DNA from: a virus
Strand: one strand, 5' to 3'
IMG/VR virus record: IMGVR_UViG_3300046522_000441
Span: 1 to 37,218 of that record
Length of the DNA: 37,218 nucleotides
Shown here: piece by piece, positions 11,192 to 37,218 of the stretch
How the letters are laid out: every line of letters begins with the position of its first letter
How positions within the stretch are numbered: position 1 is the first letter of the stretch
Translations under genes and position numbers: made by a program
Notes under the pieces: generated by a model
The model's input: the letters and a program-made list of their open reading frames with translations, nothing else
Database searches by the model: none
Told to the model about the DNA's origin: nothing

Positions 11192-11956
11192 GTGACGGAA
11201 TATAGCATGACTGAATCATCCGCTTTCATCAAATTTGCCGAACAAAGCGGGTTGAACGAAATCTCTGCCTTTCTTCGTGCCGTTTCTGACGGATGGGGAT
11301 GGAAGCTTCTATATCGTGGCCATGCGAATGCATCTTGGACGGCTCTTCCCTCGGCGTTCCGCCCCGGCGCCAGCGGATTGAAATCGGCGGCGCAGCTATC
11401 GCGTTGGAGAAGCATGGCGCAGCGCTTTGCATCGCCGCCACCGGCTGACGAGCTAGCTTATCTTGTGCTCGCGCAGCACTATGGCGTGAAAACGGCCCTG
11501 CTCGATTGGACGAGCAACCCGCTTACCGCTCTGTTCTTTGCGTGCGAGCCTTCAGAGGCGGGGCGCAATCAGCCGGGCGAGGTTCTCGCGATTGAGCGTG
11601 GCCATTTCGCATTTTGCGAGACGACGATGTTTGTTCAGCCGTTTGCGACTGAGCGAGAAAAACCGCTGCTCGTCGATAGCTCAGCGATGAACCCGCGATC
11701 TACGGCGCAGGATAGTTATATGTCGCTTCACATTCCGAAGGAGGCACCATTACCGACCCGATCGATCTTCACGATTCCGTACGACAAGAAACATCAGATC
11801 CGATTGGCGCTGGAGCTTCTTGGACTGACGCCGGAGCGGGTCTACGTCGACCTTGCCGTCGCTGCCTCCCGCATGATGGAATACATTAATTCCATCGACG
11901 CCTTCGACCAATTTATTGACGATCTGAACAAGAAGGTTGCCGAAGAAAATGGCTAG
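11192..11956 (+). CDS. FRG-domain protein (cargo, possible defence or exclusion gene)
   Basis: 254 residues. The FRG domain is recognisable: the LLYRGHANASWTALPSAFR block (Y41-R42-G43 in place of the usual F-R-G) and the AQHYGVKTALLDWTSNPLTALFFA block. FRG proteins of unknown enzymatic activity occur in phages and in candidate anti-phage islands. The GTG at 11192 is chosen because GGAG lies 6 bases upstream; an ATG at 11207 is the alternative. It is encoded against the tail genes between S and J, ends one base before the S stop, and is less GC-rich than its neighbours, which suggests recent acquisition. It lies 97 bases right of palindrome copy 2. Confidence 0.85.
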   Translation: MTEYSMTESSAFIKFAEQSGLNEISAFLRAVSDGWGWKLLYRGHANASWTALPSAFRPGASGLKSAAQLSRWRSMAQRFASPPPADELAYLVLAQHYGVKTALLDWTSNPLTALFFACEPSEAGRNQPGEVLAIERGHFAFCETTMFVQPFATEREKPLLVDSSAMNPRSTAQDSYMSLHIPKEAPLPTRSIFTIPYDKKHQIRLALELLGLTPERVYVDLAVAASRMMEYINSIDAFDQFIDDLNKKVAEENG

Positions 11957-12424
11957 TCAGGCGTCGACCCCGTCTAGCACCGCCGCGAGGATGGCATCGT
12001 CATCATCGGCGCCGAAGCCGAGCAGTTCGCGCGCGGGATAGCGATATTGCGCCGCGCCGCGAATGCGCGCGACGCGGTCGCGTAGACCGAAATGGTGGAC
12101 CTCGGCCGTCTTTGCGACCTTGCCGTTGAACGACAGCTCGACATGGTCGGCGCTGGCGTCGACATTCATGTTTCGCGCCAGCCGGATCTTGGGGAACATG
12201 CGGCCCTTTTTCTTGACGCGATCCTTCTTGCGATCGCGCAGCGGGCGCGGCTTGCGCGGTTCCATCGTCGAGCCATCGGGTTCGACATTGCGCGCGATCC
12301 GTTGGGCATTGGTGCGCCGAAGGGCGAGGCCGATCTTGCGTGCGATCTTGCGCATATTGCCATCGCCGAAGCGCTTGGCGATGGCCGCGACCCATGGCGC
12401 GAGCTGGTTGAAATTGTCGGTCAA
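11957..12424 (-). CDS. S: Tail completion protein gpS
   Basis: P2 gpS (phage virion morphogenesis) family, 155 residues (P2: 150), needed to join tail to head. Its centre is strongly basic (RKPRPLRDRKKDRVKKKGRM) and it contains the conserved HHFGLRDRV block followed by YPARELLGF, as in P2-type homologues. The ATG overlaps the R stop as ATGA. It ends head on against the FRG gene. Confidence 0.92.
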   Translation of the reverse strand: MTDNFNQLAPWVAAIAKRFGDGNMRKIARKIGLALRRTNAQRIARNVEPDGSTMEPRKPRPLRDRKKDRVKKKGRMFPKIRLARNMNVDASADHVELSFNGKVAKTAEVHHFGLRDRVARIRGAAQYRYPARELLGFGADDDDAILAAVLDGVDA

Positions 12425-18501: not shown

Positions 18502-20361
18502 ATGCCATCCCCGCCGCCCTTCATCCCGCCCGCGACGGCGACCGCGATCCGACCGCCGGAGGTCACCCCCGACGCGCCGGCGCCGCCGCGTCGTCGCGCA
18601 CGATCGCTCTATTGGCAGGGCTGGGGAATCTCGCAGATTGCAGAGGAGCTGGATCTTCCGATCAGCACGATCAGCAGTTGGAAGGGGCGCGACAAATGGG
18701 ATGAAGCGTCGAGCGTCCAAAAGATCGAGGATCACCTAGAATGTCGCCTCGCGATGCTGATCGCGAAGGACAAAAAGACCGGGCACGATTTCAAGGAAAT
18801 GGACGCCCTGTTCCGCGGACTTGAGAAAACCGCGCGCCGTCAGAAATTCCTCAACGGTGGGAACGAGGTCGACCTCAACCCGAATGTTGCCAATCGCAAT
18901 GCGCCCGAGGTGAAGGATAAGAAGAAAAAGGGCAAAAACCTGATTGACCGCGAGGGGCTTGAGCAGCTCGAAGCGGCATTCCACCGCGATAATTTCTTCT
19001 ATCAGGAGACGTGGTGGGCGAACGTCAGCCGGCGGACGCGCTTCATCCTCAAAAGCCGCCAGATCGGCGCGACGTGGTATTTCGCGCGCGAGGCGCTGCT
19101 ATGGGGCCTCAAGACTGGCCACAACCAGATATTCCTTTCGGCGAGCCGCAATCAGGCGAACGTCTTTCGTGAATATATCGTCGCCTTCGTCGAAGCCGAG
19201 CTGGGCATCACGCTTCGCGGCAACCCGCTGGTCATCCAGCGTGGCGTAGATGACAAGGGCGAGCAGCTCGCGCCTTTCACCATGTATTTTCTCGGGACCA
19301 ATTCCCGAACCGCACAAAGCTACAGCGGCGATGTCTATATCGACGAAGCCTTCTGGATCTATGGTTTCGAAAAGCTCGAAACCGTCGCCAGCGGGATGGC
19401 GACGCACAAGCGGTTTCGAAAAACCTATTTCTCGACGCCATCGGTTATTGCGCACGAGGCCTATGCCAAATGGTCGGGCGAAAAATACAATCATCGCCGG
19501 GCCAAAGCCGACCGCGCGAAGTTCGATATCAGCCACGCGGCGCTGAAAGACGGCGTTGAGGGTGCGGATCGCATCTGGCGCCAAATCATCACGATCGACG
19601 ACGCGATCGCCGGCGGTCTTGCGGACCTGGTCGACCGCGACGAGCTGATGTTCGAATATTCGCTCGACGAATTCGACCTCCTCTTCCTGTGCCACTTCCT
19701 CGACGACAGCCAGTCGGTGTTTCCGCACCAAATGATGATGCGCTGCGGCGTCGATGTCTTTCGCGAGTGGAAGGATTTCAACGAATATTCCCGTCGTCCC
19801 TTCGGAGAAGGCGAAGTCTGGATCGGCTACGATCCGAACGGAGAAAGCGGGCAGGGCGATGAAGCGGGACTGATCGTCGCGGCGCCACCGGCGAAGGCGG
19901 GCGGCAAGTTCCGTCTGCTCGAAAAGAAGCGGTTCCGCGGCAAGGATTATCAAGAGCAAGCGGCCGAGATCAAAGCCATGTGCGGGCGCTATAACGTCAC
20001 TCATATCGCGATCGACACAACCGGGATCGGCAGCGCGGTCTATAGCCTTGTGAGCGCGTGGTTCCCCGCGGTGCGCGCGATACGCTACTCGCCCGAGGTC
20101 AAGGCCATGATGGTCTACAAGGCCAAAAAGGTGATCGCCGATGGTCGCCTGCAGTTCGCGTCGCATTGGCAGGACGTGATCAACAGCTTCATGTCGATCC
20201 GCCCGCACGTCACGCGCAGCAACAAATCCGTCACCTTCGTCGCCAGCCGATCCGGTTCCACCGGACACGCCGATCTCGCGTGGGCGGCGATGCATGTTCT
20301 TTTCAATGAAGCGCTCGATCCGAATGCGGTCGCGGCGCAAAGCGTAGTGGAGTTGTGTTGA
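18502..20361 (+). CDS. P: Terminase ATPase (large) subunit gpP
   Basis: 619 residues (P2 gpP: 590). The N-terminus (about 35-75) is a helix-turn-helix (YWQGWGISQIAEELDLPIST) as in P2-type terminases. The ATPase has the variant Walker A LKSRQIGATWYFAREALLWG and Walker B VYIDEAFW. The C-terminal nuclease-like part includes the IAIDTTGIG block. An in-frame TAG at 18487 fixes the start at 18502. No ribosome site is visible before it, which fits a leaderless message from palindrome copy 3. Confidence 0.96.
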   Translation: MPSPPPFIPPATATAIRPPEVTPDAPAPPRRRARSLYWQGWGISQIAEELDLPISTISSWKGRDKWDEASSVQKIEDHLECRLAMLIAKDKKTGHDFKEMDALFRGLEKTARRQKFLNGGNEVDLNPNVANRNAPEVKDKKKKGKNLIDREGLEQLEAAFHRDNFFYQETWWANVSRRTRFILKSRQIGATWYFAREALLWGLKTGHNQIFLSASRNQANVFREYIVAFVEAELGITLRGNPLVIQRGVDDKGEQLAPFTMYFLGTNSRTAQSYSGDVYIDEAFWIYGFEKLETVASGMATHKRFRKTYFSTPSVIAHEAYAKWSGEKYNHRRAKADRAKFDISHAALKDGVEGADRIWRQIITIDDAIAGGLADLVDRDELMFEYSLDEFDLLFLCHFLDDSQSVFPHQMMMRCGVDVFREWKDFNEYSRRPFGEGEVWIGYDPNGESGQGDEAGLIVAAPPAKAGGKFRLLEKKRFRGKDYQEQAAEIKAMCGRYNVTHIAIDTTGIGSAVYSLVSAWFPAVRAIRYSPEVKAMMVYKAKKVIADGRLQFASHWQDVINSFMSIRPHVTRSNKSVTFVASRSGSTGHADLAWAAMHVLFNEALDPNAVAAQSVVELC

Positions 20362-22427: not shown

Positions 22428-23177
22428 TCAGTCGCTGTGTCGCGGCAGGCGTGCCGGGGGCGAATACGCATAGAAGGCATCGTAATCATCCGGTTTTAGG
22501 CGATGAAAACGAACAAGTGTCGAGAGAACGTGCTCAGGCCTGCCAGCCGACACTTCGTAGCCCCGCCGAAGATGCGACGCGTCGGAAGACAGATTGAGAT
22601 CGGCAACGTGCTGATCGAGACTCTGACGGTGGGGCCACTTCGGCAGCACATGCCCCGTTACCAATTGGAACCGCAATAAGTCGTTGCGTAGCGCTCGTCG
22701 ATCGGTGTCCCGCTCGATCCGTCTGACAAACCCGTTCAATCCATCTAACTGATGAGCAGACCAAAACGCCTCCGCTTCGGGGAACATCGCAATTTCAGTC
22801 GGTATGATCTCCATGTGAGCGGCGTCGTTGTTTATCGCCATCGCGACCAAGCTCGGCGGCCCGCCTCGTGGCTGGATCCAAGGGGCGCCGTCTAACAGAG
22901 TGTGCTTGGCGTGAAGGATTTCGTGCGCAAGCATATGAGCTGGGATCGGGTCGTCGCTCGCCAGCACCAAAATTGCACGCGCGCTCTTACCGTCCGTGTC
23001 GATCTCCATCGCTGCAGGCGCCATATTCACGGCCCGGTGAACGTTCAGCGGCATAGGCTTGACGCCGATTCCACTGCCGCAACGGTCCTCGATCTGCTTC
23101 ACAATGTGCTGCATTTCGGACGGGAGAATATTCAGTAACGAAGCTTCCATGCGTAGGTCTTTATCGCTTGCGATCAC
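22428..23177 (-). CDS. HExxH-motif protein, possible metallopeptidase
   Basis: 249 residues from the GTG at 23177 (an ATG at 23150 is the alternative). The clear feature is a zincin-type motif, HMLAHEILHAKH (H85-E86-x-x-H89), followed about 30 residues later by INNDAAHMEIIPTE, which could provide the third metal ligand. The C-terminal 120 residues are helical and basic/aromatic without recognised similarity. I do not recognise the family; ImmA-like or other gluzincin relatives are possibilities. It overlaps the end of the upstream gene 23161-23556 and is probably co-transcribed with it, hence placed under the LexA box at 23568. Peptidase activity is inferred from the motif only. Confidence 0.7.
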   Translation of the reverse strand: MIASDKDLRMEASLLNILPSEMQHIVKQIEDRCGSGIGVKPMPLNVHRAVNMAPAAMEIDTDGKSARAILVLASDDPIPAHMLAHEILHAKHTLLDGAPWIQPRGGPPSLVAMAINNDAAHMEIIPTEIAMFPEAEAFWSAHQLDGLNGFVRRIERDTDRRALRNDLLRFQLVTGHVLPKWPHRQSLDQHVADLNLSSDASHLRRGYEVSAGRPEHVLSTLVRFHRLKPDDYDAFYAYSPPARLPRHSD

Positions 23178-23582: not shown

Positions 23583-24226
23583 ATGACGACAAGAGCGCAG
23601 CGCGCGCCATGCGACAGACCGAGCTTGCCGCGCCGAGGCCGATCAACCGTGAGAGGTCTCACCTCGACCCCGCGCGCCGCGCTCACCCCCACGCCTCGCC
23701 TGCGCTCTCTTTTCATGGTTTCGACGCACATGGGCGGGCGTGAGATGCCGCCGTTCGGCGAGCGGTAGAGGGCCATGTGCACTCCGACCGATCCGACGCG
23801 CCTGAACGCAGGTCATCGCATGACGCTGATTTCTGGGGCCGTTTTCATGGTCATCAAGCAATCGTACCTACCCCGTGTCGGCTGGGCCTAACCTTCCTCA
23901 CTCGGCATAGTCTCTGATATCAAGATGCTGATATGTAACGTAAATTATATTAGATTTGCCATCTAATTGGCGCCTAACTTTTTGATGGGTCCGATTAAAA
24001 ATCGTTCAAAATCAATAGGTTAGCTTACCTAAAAGGTTAGATTGATTATACCTAATTTGGTTAGATGGAAATGCGGTCCCGGTTAGGTCGTAAGCCCTTG
24101 ATAATCGGCGCTTGTTAGATAGGTTAGGTCGTTCCCGTCACCCCCCGAATAATGAATTGGAAAGTGCGGCTAGAAATTACCACAGCGGCAAGGTGCAGAT
24201 CTTCACGCTGCGAACGTGCAGGAGAT
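23583..24226. other. Intergenic region of about 640 bases
   Basis: No convincing gene is visible. Open frames here (for example 23462-23782 minus, 23520-23768 plus) are basic, low-complexity shadows without ribosome sites. The left 300 bases are GC-rich like the rest of the genome. From about 23930 to 24131 the sequence becomes strongly AT-rich and repetitive (described separately). Confidence 0.6.
23930..24131. repeat. AT-rich region with repeated GGTTAG motifs, candidate origin
   Basis: GGTTAG occurs at 24018, 24035, 24059, 24081 and 24122, TGTTAG at 24113, and inverted CCTAA-type copies at about 24028 and 24051. Further related CTAAC/CTAAT words lie at about 23887, 23951 and 23973. Longer repeats are GGTTAGGTCGT (24081 and 24122) and GGTTAGAT (24035 and 24059). 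The base composition contrasts sharply with the GC-rich flanks. Repeated short motifs beside AT-rich DNA fit an origin for the P4-like primase-helicase, or accessory binding sites for recombination. Function is inference. Confidence 0.55.
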
Positions 24227-24232
24227 ATGAGT

Positions 24233-24430
24233 ATGGACGAGGCGGACAGCGGCGATCGCGTCTTCATGATCATGGGCGTCGACGATCAGGGCGATACGCA
24301 CCTCGTCGGGACAAGCGACCCGGACCGCGCTCACGCGCACTATAAGAGGATGGCGACGACTATGAGGAGCGTGCGCGGCAATGGCGCGTTCAATGAGATC
24401 GGTCGACCGGACGCCGGTTCAGAGAATTAG
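24233..24430 (+). CDS. Small unknown protein convergent with the integrase
   Basis: 65 residues from the ATG at 24233, chosen because AGGAG lies 8 bases upstream (ATG 24227 is too close to it). It begins with an acidic MDEADSGD segment followed by RVFMIMGVDDQGDTHLVGTSD and a helical basic part. This suggests a small alpha/beta protein. No family recognised. It ends 5 bases before the integrase stop, tail to tail. Confidence 0.6.
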   Translation: MDEADSGDRVFMIMGVDDQGDTHLVGTSDPDRAHAHYKRMATTMRSVRGNGAFNEIGRPDAGSEN

Positions 24431-24435
24431 GGCGA

Positions 24436-26067
24436 TCACGCCGCCATCGCGCGCAGCATCGTACTGCACCGCATAAATCCTACTCCCGCAACCAATTTTA
24501 CAGTACGGTCGCTAGAGGCCGAAGCCCCCCCAACAGATTGAAGCATCGCGGCGAGGACGCCGTGTAGCTCAAGTATAGCGCCGCGGCCCTCGGGGTTCGG
24601 TGACATGACCACCTTGCCGATATGCGGGCGCAGGCTCGCCCGAAATTCATCGGTGTCATATTCGCCGCTGTCGAGGTTCGCCTGCGCGTTTTCGATCCAG
24701 CGCCGGTATTCGAGCGCTATGCCGGGATGGAAGGCGAGCAGATTGATCGCTTCGCCTTCGTCTATTTCGGCCTGAATGTTTCGGCGCTCGGCGTAGGCGT
24801 CCATGAGCTTCGTCTTGAGTTCCTGATACTCCCCGAGACCATCGGCGATCGCATTTGTCAGACGATCGACGCGCCCCTGCGCTTTGACCATGCGAGCTTC
24901 CGCCCTTGCTCGGTGCGCTTGACGACGGCGGTTCTCTTCGTTCGTCAGAATGCGCCACTCATCGACAAACTCTTCGACCCATTCCGGGGTGAGGAGCTTA
25001 TGTTTAAGCGCGTCGAGGACGCGGCGCTCAAGCTCCGCCGTCCTGATCGACGCCGCATTCGAACACATCCCCGTGTTTTTGCGGGTCGAGCAGTACCAAT
25101 AGTCTTTCGCATGGATCGTGACGTTGCCGCCGCAGATCCCGCACTCGACCAACTCAGACAACAGGCGTTTCGGCCGTCGCTGCCAACTGGGCGGCACCAC
25201 GGCGCTTTCACCGAAACGGGTGGCGACCGCTTGGAAGGTTTCTTCGTCAACTATACGCAAATCATCGACCTGCGTTGTGATCCACAATTCGGGCGGGTTG
25301 GCCTTCGACAAACGTCGACGCGTGATGGGGTGCTTTTCAAACCGTTGTCGATTGTAGACGATCCGACCCGCGTAGAGCGGATTGTGCAGCACGCCGTTCG
25401 CGCGCTTCTTGTTGCCGAGGATAGTGCTGGCGTTCCATTTTCCGCCGCGCGGCGACCTTATACCCTGTTCATTGAGCCGCTTTGCGATCGATAGGGGCGA
25501 GGATCCGGCGAGAAACTCGGTGAAGATTCGACGGATTACCTCAGCCTCATCTTCCTCAATTTCTGACCAGCCCGCCTCCGGGCGCCCGCGCGCGTCGAGC
25601 TTCACCACGGGCCGGTAGCCATAGCTGCGTCCGCCGGGGATCCGCCCGGCCTTGGCGTTGCCGATTTGGCCGCGGCGCACCTTATCGCCAAGATCTTTGA
25701 GAAAGAGCGCCGCCATGGTGCCTTTGAGGCCGACGTGGATTTCGCTGACTTCGCCATCGGAAAGCGTGACCAGGCGTGCGCCGGCATGGCGAACCAACTT
25801 GAAAATATGCGCGATATCCTCCTGATCTCGCGAAAGGCGGTCGATAGATTCCGTAAGGATGACATCAAAGCGATCGAGCGCGCCGATCAGCGCATTCAGG
25901 CCGGGCCTATCCCGTGTTGCACCGCTGATTGCGAAATCGGGAAAGACCTGATCGACCGTCCAACCTTCTCGCTCGGCGCGTTCGGCACACAGGTGCACCT
26001 GATCGTCGACCGACCTTTCGTTCTGCTTATCAGTCGAGAATCTGGCGTAGATGGCGCAGCGGACCAT
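24436..26067 (-). CDS. Large serine recombinase (integrase)
   Basis: 543 residues from the ATG at 26067 (GGAG 7 bases upstream). The N-terminal resolvase domain has the catalytic Ser10 in AIYARFSTDKQNERSVDDQ and the conserved TESIDRLSRDQED helix. The recombinase domain includes GGRSYGYRP and the NEQGIRSPRGGKW block. The zinc ribbon is CGICGG then YWYCSTRKNTGMC. A coiled-coil helix pair (about 375-455) and a C-terminal domain complete the large-serine-integrase plan. Members integrate phage DNA at attB with a directionality factor for excision. P2 and most relatives use a tyrosine integrase, so this is a module swap. It is the last gene of the leftward early operon, separated from the methyltransferase by 122 bases. 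Confidence 0.94.
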   Translation of the reverse strand: MVRCAIYARFSTDKQNERSVDDQVHLCAERAEREGWTVDQVFPDFAISGATRDRPGLNALIGALDRFDVILTESIDRLSRDQEDIAHIFKLVRHAGARLVTLSDGEVSEIHVGLKGTMAALFLKDLGDKVRRGQIGNAKAGRIPGGRSYGYRPVVKLDARGRPEAGWSEIEEDEAEVIRRIFTEFLAGSSPLSIAKRLNEQGIRSPRGGKWNASTILGNKKRANGVLHNPLYAGRIVYNRQRFEKHPITRRRLSKANPPELWITTQVDDLRIVDEETFQAVATRFGESAVVPPSWQRRPKRLLSELVECGICGGNVTIHAKDYWYCSTRKNTGMCSNAASIRTAELERRVLDALKHKLLTPEWVEEFVDEWRILTNEENRRRQAHRARAEARMVKAQGRVDRLTNAIADGLGEYQELKTKLMDAYAERRNIQAEIDEGEAINLLAFHPGIALEYRRWIENAQANLDSGEYDTDEFRASLRPHIGKVVMSPNPEGRGAILELHGVLAAMLQSVGGASASSDRTVKLVAGVGFMRCSTMLRAMAA

Positions 26068-26130
26068 GCGGGGTCTCCGGCTGGGGTGAATCAAGGTCGC
26101 GCATCTTGGCCTTAAATATCAGGCGCGCAA

Positions 26131-29733: not shown

Positions 29734-32400
29734 TCAATCCTCCATGAGGTCGTTGCGGCCTTCCGGCTGGGCGAAGACCCAACAGTGGATGACCTTGTTT
29801 TCGAGGCGGGTTTTGACGTTCTTCGCCGCTAGGAATCGGCGGCTCTTCGAGCTGCGCAGGAGCAGCTTGAGGTCGTCCATCGGGGGCGTTTGAATGCCGC
29901 GATTGCGGCAACGCTCCTCGAACATCGGCAGGCTGACCGCGATCAGCGTGTCGGATTTGCTATGGAGATTGATCGGGGTGGAACCGATTGGCTCGTTGAC
30001 CTCGAACCAGTCGAAGAGTTCCCAGAATTTCGCGACATGCGGGTGGTCGGCGCTGATGGCCTGATGCCGCTCGGCAATCATTTTCGCGATAAACTGATGG
30101 CCTTGCTCGACCACTTCATCGGGGATCTTGATGCACGCCGCGAGCGCGTCGAGGCCGGCGGCTAGCTGCGCATGGTTTTTGACCAGGCGCTGGTGCGTCA
30201 CGCCCGACAGCTTCGGCAATTCGGTCTCGTGCCGGCGGTACGCTTCAAAGAAGGTCTTGAGCCACTCGTCCTCTTGCCGAACCGTGTGGATGACGAAGGA
30301 CGACAGCTTTTCGGTCGGCCAGCTCTCGATCTCTTCGGCCGCTTTTTTCGTCGCGGGCGACCAGCCTTCTTTGTTGATCGTGAGGCTCATCAGGCGTTCG
30401 AGCAGCGCGGCCGATGCCTTGACGGCGAAGTTCTGCGCGATGATGATTCCGCCGCGAAAGGGCGGGTCATAGGTTTCCATGCCGCCCGACCGGACGCCGC
30501 GAGACCGCACCGCGCGCCCGTTGTAGGCGGTTTTCAGCTCGTCCCACTCGAACCGCTTGGAATGCGGCGTATTCTCGTCGCGGTCGCCCTCGATCAGCAC
30601 GACGGGCAGACCGCCGACCTTGCCGAGATTGCGGGCGATGGCGGCGGAGGTCGCCTTGGTCGGGTCGAAACCTTCGTAGGAATCGCGCCCGTACAGGCGC
30701 CACATGAATTCGAGCAGGGTGGACTTGCCCGATCCCGGCTCGCCGATGATCTGCAAGAAGGCGAGGCTCTTGTGCGCGGCGCGGATCTGCTCCGCGAACA
30801 GCGTCATTTGCCAGAAGGTGAGGGAGACTAGGCCCTTGGCGCCATAGGCGGTCCAGAGTTTCGGCAGCCACTGTGTGTCGAACTGATCGGCATCATATTC
30901 GATATCGAGCAGCCGTTCGGCGGTGCGCAGCTTGACCGCGACCTTGCCAAAATCGAAATAGTCCTCGGCGTTCAGATCATGGACGCGTCCCTTGCGCACC
31001 GCGATATCGCCGAGGATCCAAGCCTCGTGCGATTTGCTGTATCCGGTGAAGTCTATCGGCTCGACGGTCTTGAGGTCGCGCGTCTGGATCTGCATCAGCC
31101 GGTCGAGCTGCCCGGTCGTGCCGGTGAACATGCCCCCGAACGCGAACAGGCGCTTCTTGAACTCGGGTGCGGCGGTGAGCTGTGCGGCCGAGAAGCGGCC
31201 CTTGGCGGTCGGCATCTTGCCGGGAAAGTCGATGCGCAGATAATAGGCGGTGTCGTCGATGACCTCGTCGCGCTCGCGATAGAGCGTACGGAACGCGCAA
31301 TTTGCGATCTCGTCGGCCTCGGCGCACGCACGGATAGCCGCTTTGCGCGTCAGCTCCTCTTTGAGCATAACCTCCGAAATGCGGGCCTGATTGAAGGTCG
31401 CCCACCATGTGCGGTTGTCGAAGGCGAAGCTGAAACCCGTCCAGCCCTTGCGCTCATGGATGAGGCAGGCCTTTTCCGTCGCGCTCGGCGCGATCGTGAC
31501 CATGCCATTCCAGTAATATTCTTCGAAGTCGGTGGCGGTCAGTTTGCCCAACTGCAGCAGGTCGTTCCAATCATGGTCGACGCCGTCGATCAGGCTGGGT
31601 TGCGCGGCACTGGCGGGCCAGCCCTCGTTCTCGGCGCGCTTCACGAAATCGCGCGTCCACTTCACGCCGGCGGCGCCGACGTCGAATGCGAAGACCAGCT
31701 CCGGGCGATGGTTCGGCGTCGGGCCGTTGGCGATTGCTTGCCGCAATTCCTTGAGGAAATGCTCGGGCCAGTTGCTGACGGTCATTGCCGACACCGCAAC
31801 ATGGCCAACCTGTTTCAGCGCCCATGCGTTGAATATGCCCTCGGTAATCTCGATGCGCTCGGCAGTGGCCAGAGTTTCCATCGTGAAATCAGGCGGGATC
31901 CAGCAATAGCCCTTGTAGGATTTCCCGCCGACCGATGGCTTGGGCGCAAAGCGGGCCTTCATGTCGAACCGGCTCGGCTGGTCGATCAGCCGTTCCCACC
32001 ATGTACCGCCGGGCAGCGGGAAGCGCACGGTGGCGGTCCCGATGTTGCGTTCCTGATCGCGGTAATATTCCTGCGTGTAACAGCCGCGCATGCCCGCAAG
32101 GTCGAGGCCGCGGCCATGGTGCAGGAATGCATCGGCGGCGGCGTTCGGGTCGGCCTCGGTCGCCTTGAAACGCTTCGACCAGTCGTTGAAAATGTCGGGG
32201 AAATACTCGCGTACCGACTTCTCATAGCCGCATTTGTTGAGCCGACCGCATTTGAGGACGCGGGGCGTTTCGGCGTGCGTGAACAGCTCCCGCTTGCCGC
32301 ATTCCGGGCAGCGCCCCTTGCGCAGCCACTCCCGCTCGGGCGTGAACTTGAACTCCTGCATCAAAGCGTCGCGCAGTTCTTGGGCGAGGGTTTTGCTCAT
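29734..32400 (-). CDS. Bifunctional primase-helicase (zinc ribbon, TOPRIM, SF3-like ATPase)
   Basis: 888 residues. The N-terminal zinc ribbon has Cys31, 34, 51 and 57 (RCPECGKRELF, then LKCGRLNKCGYEK), as in DnaG-type primases. A TOPRIM-like part follows (about 180-280): the glutamate block RIEITEGIFNAWALK and the strand LVFAFDVGAAGVKW. The helicase core has Walker A IIGEPGSGKSTLLEF at about 550 and the acidic strand LPVVLIEGDRDEN at about 600, then a GGIIIAQNF sensor-like strand. The plan resembles P4 alpha and related phage primases. I see no P2 gpA-type rolling-circle nuclease anywhere in the window, so this is probably the replication initiator. No ribosome site is obvious, and a hairpin lies 38 bases upstream. 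Confidence 0.9.
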   Translation of the reverse strand: MSKTLAQELRDALMQEFKFTPEREWLRKGRCPECGKRELFTHAETPRVLKCGRLNKCGYEKSVREYFPDIFNDWSKRFKATEADPNAAADAFLHHGRGLDLAGMRGCYTQEYYRDQERNIGTATVRFPLPGGTWWERLIDQPSRFDMKARFAPKPSVGGKSYKGYCWIPPDFTMETLATAERIEITEGIFNAWALKQVGHVAVSAMTVSNWPEHFLKELRQAIANGPTPNHRPELVFAFDVGAAGVKWTRDFVKRAENEGWPASAAQPSLIDGVDHDWNDLLQLGKLTATDFEEYYWNGMVTIAPSATEKACLIHERKGWTGFSFAFDNRTWWATFNQARISEVMLKEELTRKAAIRACAEADEIANCAFRTLYRERDEVIDDTAYYLRIDFPGKMPTAKGRFSAAQLTAAPEFKKRLFAFGGMFTGTTGQLDRLMQIQTRDLKTVEPIDFTGYSKSHEAWILGDIAVRKGRVHDLNAEDYFDFGKVAVKLRTAERLLDIEYDADQFDTQWLPKLWTAYGAKGLVSLTFWQMTLFAEQIRAAHKSLAFLQIIGEPGSGKSTLLEFMWRLYGRDSYEGFDPTKATSAAIARNLGKVGGLPVVLIEGDRDENTPHSKRFEWDELKTAYNGRAVRSRGVRSGGMETYDPPFRGGIIIAQNFAVKASAALLERLMSLTINKEGWSPATKKAAEEIESWPTEKLSSFVIHTVRQEDEWLKTFFEAYRRHETELPKLSGVTHQRLVKNHAQLAAGLDALAACIKIPDEVVEQGHQFIAKMIAERHQAISADHPHVAKFWELFDWFEVNEPIGSTPINLHSKSDTLIAVSLPMFEERCRNRGIQTPPMDDLKLLLRSSKSRRFLAAKNVKTRLENKVIHCWVFAQPEGRNDLMED

Positions 32401-36359: not shown

Positions 36360-36755
36360 ATGTTCCTGTGCAAATCAATGACGCCTCGCGAGCTGGACGC
36401 GCTCGAAGACGAGCTAGCCGTCGCGGCATGCGAAGCGCGCCTGAAATACCCCAGCCATGCCGTCTATACGGACGGCCTGTTCTGGGCGCCGACGCTGACG
36501 ATCCTGATGCCGGAAGAGGGCCGCGAGTATATCGAGGCGGTGCTGCCCGATGGATGGCAGCCGTGCGATGATGCGGCCGAATTCGAATGGTTTATGTGGG
36601 CCGGGCCGACCTATCGGCACGAGCGCCGGCATGGACTGCCCGAGGCGAAGCTCGGCGGCAAGCATAAGGCCTATTCGCGCCCTGCTGCGAACGACGACAT
36701 GGCGTTGCTGCCGCTGTTTGATGAGCCGACATCGGATAATGCGCTAGGCGCCTAG
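36360..36755 (+). CDS. Unknown protein, divergent from SRAP and possibly SOS-controlled
   Basis: 131 residues. GGAG lies 7 bases before the ATG. The N-terminal helix (MTPRELDALEDELAVAACEARLKYP) is followed by a strand-rich part with TDGLFWAPTLTILMPEEG and an aromatic EFEWFMWAGPTYRHERRHGL block. The end is low-complexity and acidic. No family recognised. It ends inside the stop region of gene D, convergent with it. Confidence 0.7.
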   Translation: MFLCKSMTPRELDALEDELAVAACEARLKYPSHAVYTDGLFWAPTLTILMPEEGREYIEAVLPDGWQPCDDAAEFEWFMWAGPTYRHERRHGLPEAKLGGKHKAYSRPAANDDMALLPLFDEPTSDNALGA

Positions 36756-37218
36756 ATCCAGTGTGAGCGACGTCGTGAAACCGCCGCTGCCGTCTATCCG
36801 GTGCGACACCTCGGCAATTTGCCATTTCTGTGCGTCGATCTCGCTCTTGAATCCTGACAATGCGACCGAGCGCTCGGGCATCAAGCTCGCGTCGCCGTAG
36901 GCGAGCGTGAGCGTGAACTCGGCGGCGGTGCGTGCGTCGCGGCGCTTGGCGCCCTCGGCGGCGGCTTTCGCGTCGCTCTCGCTCGCATAGGTGCGCTTCA
37001 ACCGGCGCGGGTTTTTGGTCCCGCCGACCTTCACCACTTCATGTTTGGCCTTCGCCTGGTCGCGCCATTGCGCTTCGACACCGTCGTGCTCATCGCGCGT
37101 TTTCCGCGTCCAGCCATAGCTGCTGCACATGCCCTTATCGATTGTGAGACCGGGGATGGCGGCGCCGCCGGCGGTGGTGCCGACGCCTATGGGCGCGAGG
37201 ATCAGCGTACCCGCCTTG
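36744..37218 (-). CDS. D: Late control/tail protein gpD, C-terminal part (runs in from the window end)
   Basis: C-terminal half of the baseplate hub gene whose start lies at 633. Joined through the 34-base terminal overlap, the frame is continuous: the duplicated segment encodes KAGTLILAPIG in both copies. The C-terminus (LSGFKSEIDAQKW, then GGFTTSLTLDL) matches the end of P2 gpD (VSGFKRVIDEQDW, then GFTTSLELEV). The stop TAG is at 36744-36746. The gene ends tail to tail with the plus-strand gene 36360-36755, overlapping it by 12 bases, and I see no terminator hairpin between them. The only difference between the two copies of the overlap is ATA versus ATC, both Ile. Confidence 0.92.
   Translation of the reverse strand, partial: KAGTLILAPIGVGTTAGGAAIPGLTIDKGMCSSYGWTRKTRDEHDGVEAQWRDQAKAKHEVVKVGGTKNPRRLKRTYASESDAKAAAEGAKRRDARTAAEFTLTLAYGDASLMPERSVALSGFKSEIDAQKWQIAEVSHRIDGSGGFTTSLTLDLGA
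37185..37218. repeat. Terminal overlap of the contig (right copy)
   Basis: Right copy of the 34-base overlap. The single difference from the left copy changes ATC to ATA, both isoleucine, so it may be a real variant in the sampled population or an end-of-contig error. Confidence 0.9.

Follow-up and report, generated by a model that had tools for sequence, protein, structure and literature searches.

The virus record IMGVR_UViG_3300046522_000441 of IMG/VR, analysed over its whole length of 37,218 nucleotides (hereafter the window), appears to be the circularly permuted genome of a P2-like sphingomonad phage. Between its cos region and its attachment site lies an AT-rich array of short repeats, or iterons, about 272 bp long with inverted outer ends (23873-24146, plus strand). 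Judged from sequence comparison, this element is in all likelihood the replication origin of the phage, which a primase-helicase encoded at 29734-32400 on the minus strand would bind and open. The reading is supported by the co-distribution of a homologous element with this protein in phages that have a cos in common, and by a layout resembling that of the origins of phage-inducible chromosomal islands (PICIs; PMC6092414).

An earlier note on this DNA had proposed a candidate origin at 23930-24131 on the basis of GGTTAG repeats. The array is indeed found there, but that interval is too small; a profile of 16 loci extends the element to approximately 23873-24146. The direct and inverted copies that the note described are real. 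Exact GGTTAG occurs on the plus strand at 24018, 24035, 24059, 24081 and 24122, with one TGTTAG at 24113, a single inverted GGTTAG at 23888 and TTAG in five inverted sites in all. The longer words it reported are likewise each present twice, GGTTAGGTCGT at 24081 and 24122 and GGTTAGAT at 24035 and 24059. Six of the eight GGTTAG copies in the 37 kb fall inside 250 bp. These counts were never reached when the element was shuffled 2000 times with its dinucleotides preserved: GGTTAG appeared at most twice against six observed, and TTAG at most nine times against 12 (seven plus, five minus); the repeats are not a product of chance. The region is also, as the note had it, the only strongly AT-rich part of the genome: GC content per 200 bp reaches its genome-wide minimum of 0.37 at 23920, against 0.49 in the region that ranks next, and no other stretch falls below 49%.

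The organisation of the element emerges from alignments of 16 and of 31 arrays. The left outer arm, GTGTCGGCTGGGCCTAACCTTCCTCACT (23874-23901, minus strand), carries iterons mostly on the minus strand and is, in relatives, a near-perfect inverted repeat of the right arm. The right outer arm (24112-24146, plus strand) holds a terminal iteron pair, TTGTTAGATAGGTTAGGTCGTTCCCGTCACCCCCC, with sites spaced 9 bp apart and a conserved ending, TTCCCGACACCCCCC. GGTTAG and TGTTAG iterons of the right-hand set, at the six plus-strand positions given above, span 24018-24127. The AT-rich core between the outer sets (23925-24060), with the lowest GC of the genome, is a candidate melting region. A repeat scan of the window for a second iteron set, comparable to separate ori and crr sites, found only this one array.

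Homologous elements recur among relatives. L115/G005, G418, G424, L127, G427, G428, G437, G167, G015:C7 and G015:C30 share the cos of the window phage and carry an AT-rich repeat array at a distance of 80-480 bp beyond it; in G435, which shares this cos too, the array lies behind an inserted gene, at +557 to +830. Arrays are found too in phages of other hosts selected by their primase (G010, G450, G454 and L051). All align as one element, 268-277 bp long in 16 loci. When each member was left out of the 16-locus profile in turn, the window element was recovered at 23886-24146 with E=2.6e-24 and the other members at E<1e-17, except for G427, whose words are entirely different; reversed control sequences gave no match. 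The repeated words include GGTTAG, GTTATG, GTAATG, GTAGGG, GTAAGG, GTTGCG, GTTGGG, TGATG and TACCGT/TTCCA, and within any one array the sites change word together. A search for a literal GGTTAG cluster near the primase gene found none in 80 relatives and at first seemed to tell against the origin; the words differ, and the majority of the loci did not include the cos-att region. The earlier note had treated absence of the motif from relatives with the same primase as grounds for abandoning the origin; this would be misleading, because such relatives carry the same element with a different word. Plain 6-mer scoring cannot separate arrays from GC-rich coding repeats and misses some of them (C30, G435), whereas the alignment profile does separate them. 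Among ten further primase-selected records, four have an array (G010, G450, G454 and, weakly, G472) and six do not (G008, G448, G462, G467, G474 and G477), perhaps, at a guess, through trimming of the cos-att end. A separate feature of the alignment is a 15-mer, CCGCAGAAATCCGCC, which 18 of the 31 arrays contain with up to two mismatches. Its position is mostly constant, at approximately 226-241 (for example in G418, G437 and G084); it is rare elsewhere and is not found in the window array.

The distribution of the element follows that of the primase gene. Among the larger records sharing the same cos, the primase is present in all eight with an array, one of which (C30+C49) was joined from two contigs of one genome, and in none of the 11 lacking it. 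Three others (G424, G428 and L127) carry the array, and their sequence ends before the expected primase position. Of the gene families tested in cos-bearing records, only the primase tracks the array; the other perfect matches come from antisense frames of that same gene. Searches of 397 Sphingomonadaceae genomes, run independently for the array model and for the primase, gave the same picture: the array is carried by 25 of the 26 primase-bearing genomes, and the remaining 371 yielded six strong matches and two weak ones (G185 and G305) that a second program did not confirm. Both were found on a single contig in 17 cases, separated by 27-38 kb; this spacing is one prophage length, and the arrangement is what a prophage split at att should show. 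There is, then, a homologous element whose layout is constant, whose word changes and which is linked exclusively to the primase gene.

At the sequence level the protein matches only phrog_1139, 'DNA primase' (E 1.7e-278), together with weak zinc-ribbon and Toprim matches. The primase profile retrieved no meaningful sequence match from the PDB, and only structure searching produced matches. An AlphaFold model (mean pLDDT, the predicted local distance difference score, 87.7) was compared with known structures by VIA. Residues ~78-309 match the primase cores of DnaG and T7 with Z scores of 12-14 (14.2 for the Aquifex primase 2au3 and 14.1 for B. subtilis DnaG). Residues 320-886 match Cch of the staphylococcal cassette chromosome SCCmec (5dgk) with Z 23.9 over 469 residues, and residues 322-881 match Rep of the Staphylococcus aureus pathogenicity island (SaPI) SaPIbov1 (8tch) with Z 19.1 over ~436 residues, the C-terminal part included. 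The model thereby places the helicase half with Cch and SaPIbov1 Rep, which are self-loading initiators, and the whole protein is predicted to be a TOPRIM primase fused to a helicase of this kind and is the proposed initiator. SaPI Rep recognises iterons through its C-terminal domain, and the isolated C-terminal domain of Cch2 binds the putative Cch2 origin (PMC7581432). The description of the protein in the earlier note as 'P4 alpha-type' holds as an analogy but fails as a statement of sequence homology: BLASTP against P4 alpha gives only a 41-residue match at the P-loop, the family profile misses alpha and the Pfam domains differ.

A mechanism can be proposed on the pattern of the SaPI/PICI and SCCmec initiators, from which C-terminal-domain binding, ring assembly, melting, priming and mode of replication are all inferred. 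The genome would first circularise at cos. The C-terminal domain of the primase-helicase, at residues ~786-881, would then bind the two iteron sets, which face in opposite directions and have their sites 9 bp apart, and the protein would form helicase rings flanking the AT-rich core. These rings would melt the core and unwind outwards, after which the protein would prime synthesis and hand over to the host polymerase. Replication would be of the theta type rather than the rolling-circle type driven by gpA.

One homologous element of ~272 bp is present in 31 aligned array/primase pairs. Co-variation of the repeated word with the protein domains was examined in 26 non-redundant pairs, using Mantel statistics that ignore phylogeny. 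Motif distance correlates with C-terminal domain distance (rho 0.30), and the partial correlation persists given the N-terminal domain (0.24, p=0.007) or the helicase domain (0.22, p=0.009). Given the C-terminal domain, the correlation of motif with the N-terminal or helicase domain vanishes (p=0.38 and 0.42). This supports, but does not prove, the view that word changes track the C-terminal domain of the initiator. On a broader scale, the balance is even on whether a large group of Peduoviridae uses a single homologous origin in which the architecture (length, site positions and inverted ends) is fixed and a change of word affects every site at once, in co-evolution with the C-terminal domain.

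Several observations weigh against the assignment of the element as the origin. The Mantel effect is small as well as blind to phylogeny, and motif distance is correlated with spacer distance as well. One primase-bearing Sphingomonadaceae genome (G139) has no detected array. Conversely, five of the six strong arrays outside the primase-bearing genomes occur without a detected primase, and the sixth lies at the end of a truncated contig (G115). Two of the five are in degraded prophages (G387 and G090). Around the other three (G067:C1:1423901-1424119, G409:C1:944008-944255 and G376:C7:199399-199607) the stretch that was read contains neither phage structural genes nor a primase, and it is possible that they are remnants, or satellites borrowing a phage origin. 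The solitary array of G067 is still adjoined by a cos-like block. In the circular genome of the window phage the array lies 5.6 kb from the primase gene with several genes between, although SaPI origins directly follow rep. GC skew was computed and found to be confounded by gene strand and uninformative, and was not used. Finally, co-distribution by itself leaves room for an additional role of the array beside cos.

Other functions for the array can be weighed against its surroundings. The cos region (23660-23712, plus strand) is a 53-mer conserved in relatives with the core GCTCACCCCCACGCCTCGCC at 23681-23700; the reverse complement of this core, GGCGAGGCGTGGGGGTGAGC, resembles the cohesive end of P2, GGCGAGGCGGGGAAAGCAC (PMC3931495), and the block lies downstream of the terminase, as in P2. 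In a pattern scan with the cos 20-mer, the flanks were also common to 31 of the 32 viral contigs found, the exception being L140, and the same block with its flanks occurs in six Sphingomonadaceae genomes. As the array lies ~190 bp from cos in fixed orientation in nearly all relatives, it might be a packaging element (cosB) composed of sites for the small terminase subunit. This is very improbable, and the reading was rejected because 11 phages with the same cos, most with the same terminase family, have no array. The inserted gene in G435 moreover shifts the array to +557, and P2, with 213 bp between old and the cosR end, offers too little room for such an element. Better candidates for terminase binding sites are the short GATGCA(G/A) repeats that flank cos (for example in L128, L138, G010 and G435) in phages with and without the array alike. 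Repeated short words in AT-rich intergenic DNA can also be operators, here for a phage repressor or regulator controlling the integrase or the open reading frame at 24227-24430. To this even less credence can be given: no other gene family follows the array, and its 272-bp layout is fixed whatever lies downstream, including in prophages where it sits directly beside host tRNA genes.

Arrays of iterons whose words change occur at centromeres as well, which would suit a partition or incompatibility site for a ParB-like protein. No ParB family follows the array, however, and the ParB-like genes noticed by eye occur in G420, G431 and G432, which lack it; a partition function is less credible again. 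Least credible of all is a role as attachment site or as integrase arm sites, despite the position of the array next to int, between cos and the prophage end. The likely attP core, AAATCCTACTCCCGCAACCA (24475-24494, plus strand), matches the 3' end of Sphingomonas tRNA-fMet at 18 of 20 positions and lies outside the array, within the 3' end of the gene for the large serine integrase (24436-26094, minus strand; PF00239, PF07508, PF13408 and phrog_95). In the relative G015:C7 the prophage ends map at tRNA-fMet. The array as attP was rejected once this copy had been found within int, the crossover core falling outside the array. Since the order is cos, array, attP, int, the array is distinct from both cos and attP. 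It is kept, furthermore, with a serine integrase in the window and with tyrosine integrases in L051, Smp131 and Dobby, and with different tRNA targets. As an aside, the large serine integrase appears to take the tRNA-fMet 3' end as its attachment core, and this core falls within the 3' end of the integrase gene itself; it is more typically tyrosine integrases that target tRNA genes.

The proposed origin invites comparison with several known systems. In PICI origins an AT-rich region always lies between two sets of iterons (PMC6092414). The window element has this iteron/AT-rich/iteron layout, and its initiator is predicted to be a self-loading helicase with the fold of SaPIbov1 Rep (8tch). It differs in lying between cos and att rather than immediately 3' of rep, in belonging to a full P2-like phage rather than a satellite, and in having long inverted repeats as its ends; the predicted initiator joins a DnaG-like TOPRIM primase to the helicase, whereas SaPI primases are of the archaeo-eukaryotic (AEP) type (PMC7581432). 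Because layout and initiator type agree and position relative to rep does not, the element is best described as a variant working like a PICI origin and not as a member of that class. For SCCmec, Cch (5dgk) is the best structural match of the helicase half, but the putative Cch2 origin adjoins its gene and contains three iterons of 5 nt (PMC7581432) as against ~12 sites in 272 bp here. P4 alpha is likewise a TOPRIM primase-helicase in one chain. The type I repeats of P4 are 8 bp long, occur in both orientations and are in some cases 9-10 bp apart, and crr lies between attP and alpha. The alpha helicase is, by contrast, of the D5 type (Pox_D5, D5_N and DUF5906) with no meaningful sequence similarity to the window protein, and P4 uses two separate sites, ori and crr, where a single array is seen here. 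With P2 the window phage shares family, cos type and structural gene order. In P2, however, the origin is a nick site that lies within gene A, and a search of the window phage for gpA (Pfam PF05840) found none, bearing out the absence claimed earlier.

The remainder of the record fits a phage of this kind, encoding a terminase, tail and baseplate homologues, a tape-measure protein, the serine integrase, the TOPRIM primase and a CI-like repressor. Its two ends, 1-633 and 36744-37217, belong to one tail-gene family, which indicates a circular genome opened inside the gene for the gpD homologue. The gpP-like large terminase subunit (18502-20361, plus strand), identified by PHROG terminase matches, places cos on the expected side. 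Beside cos, 22428-23177 (minus strand) encodes a 249-residue protein with a zinc-peptidase-like HEILH motif and no Pfam or PHROG match. The open reading frame between array and int (24227-24430, plus strand) encodes 67 residues, has an AGGAG ribosome site and belongs to no family.

The element extends to sequenced isolates. By tblastn the primase is present in the sequenced Peduoviridae Smp131, Dobby, phi3 and ESSI2 and in a few plasmid records. The array profile finds matches beside cos in Mae-JY29 (E 1.5e-29) and Smp131 (E 3.5e-5), and Dobby and Halomonas phage 4908 have dense AT-rich GGTAAT/GGTAAC arrays at the same place, recognised by eye. The isolate records carry no annotated origin, the Smp131 paper, when searched by word, proved to name none for the phage, and the open-access literature (subscription papers lay outside the search) yielded no description of the element. 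In Mae-JY29 (L333), a phage of 64% GC labelled as infecting Microcystis, the region 11930-12310 holds an array and a cos of the sphingomonad phage type, with a word closest to that of G427; the cos block seems duplicated, and the Microcystis host label may be wrong.

Taken with the window, these phages very probably represent a previously unannotated family of origins, whose layout is kept across many P2-like phages and whose word varies with the tail end of the primase-helicase. An origin would thereby be assigned to P2-like phages lacking gpA, including the long-sequenced Smp131 and Dobby, and a layout reported to be unique to PICIs (PMC6092414) would be extended to full phages. The aligned arrays and primases amount to a natural experiment in which the DNA specificity of an initiator changes while the geometry of its origin stays the same, and the pairs suggest a set of orthogonal initiators and origins.
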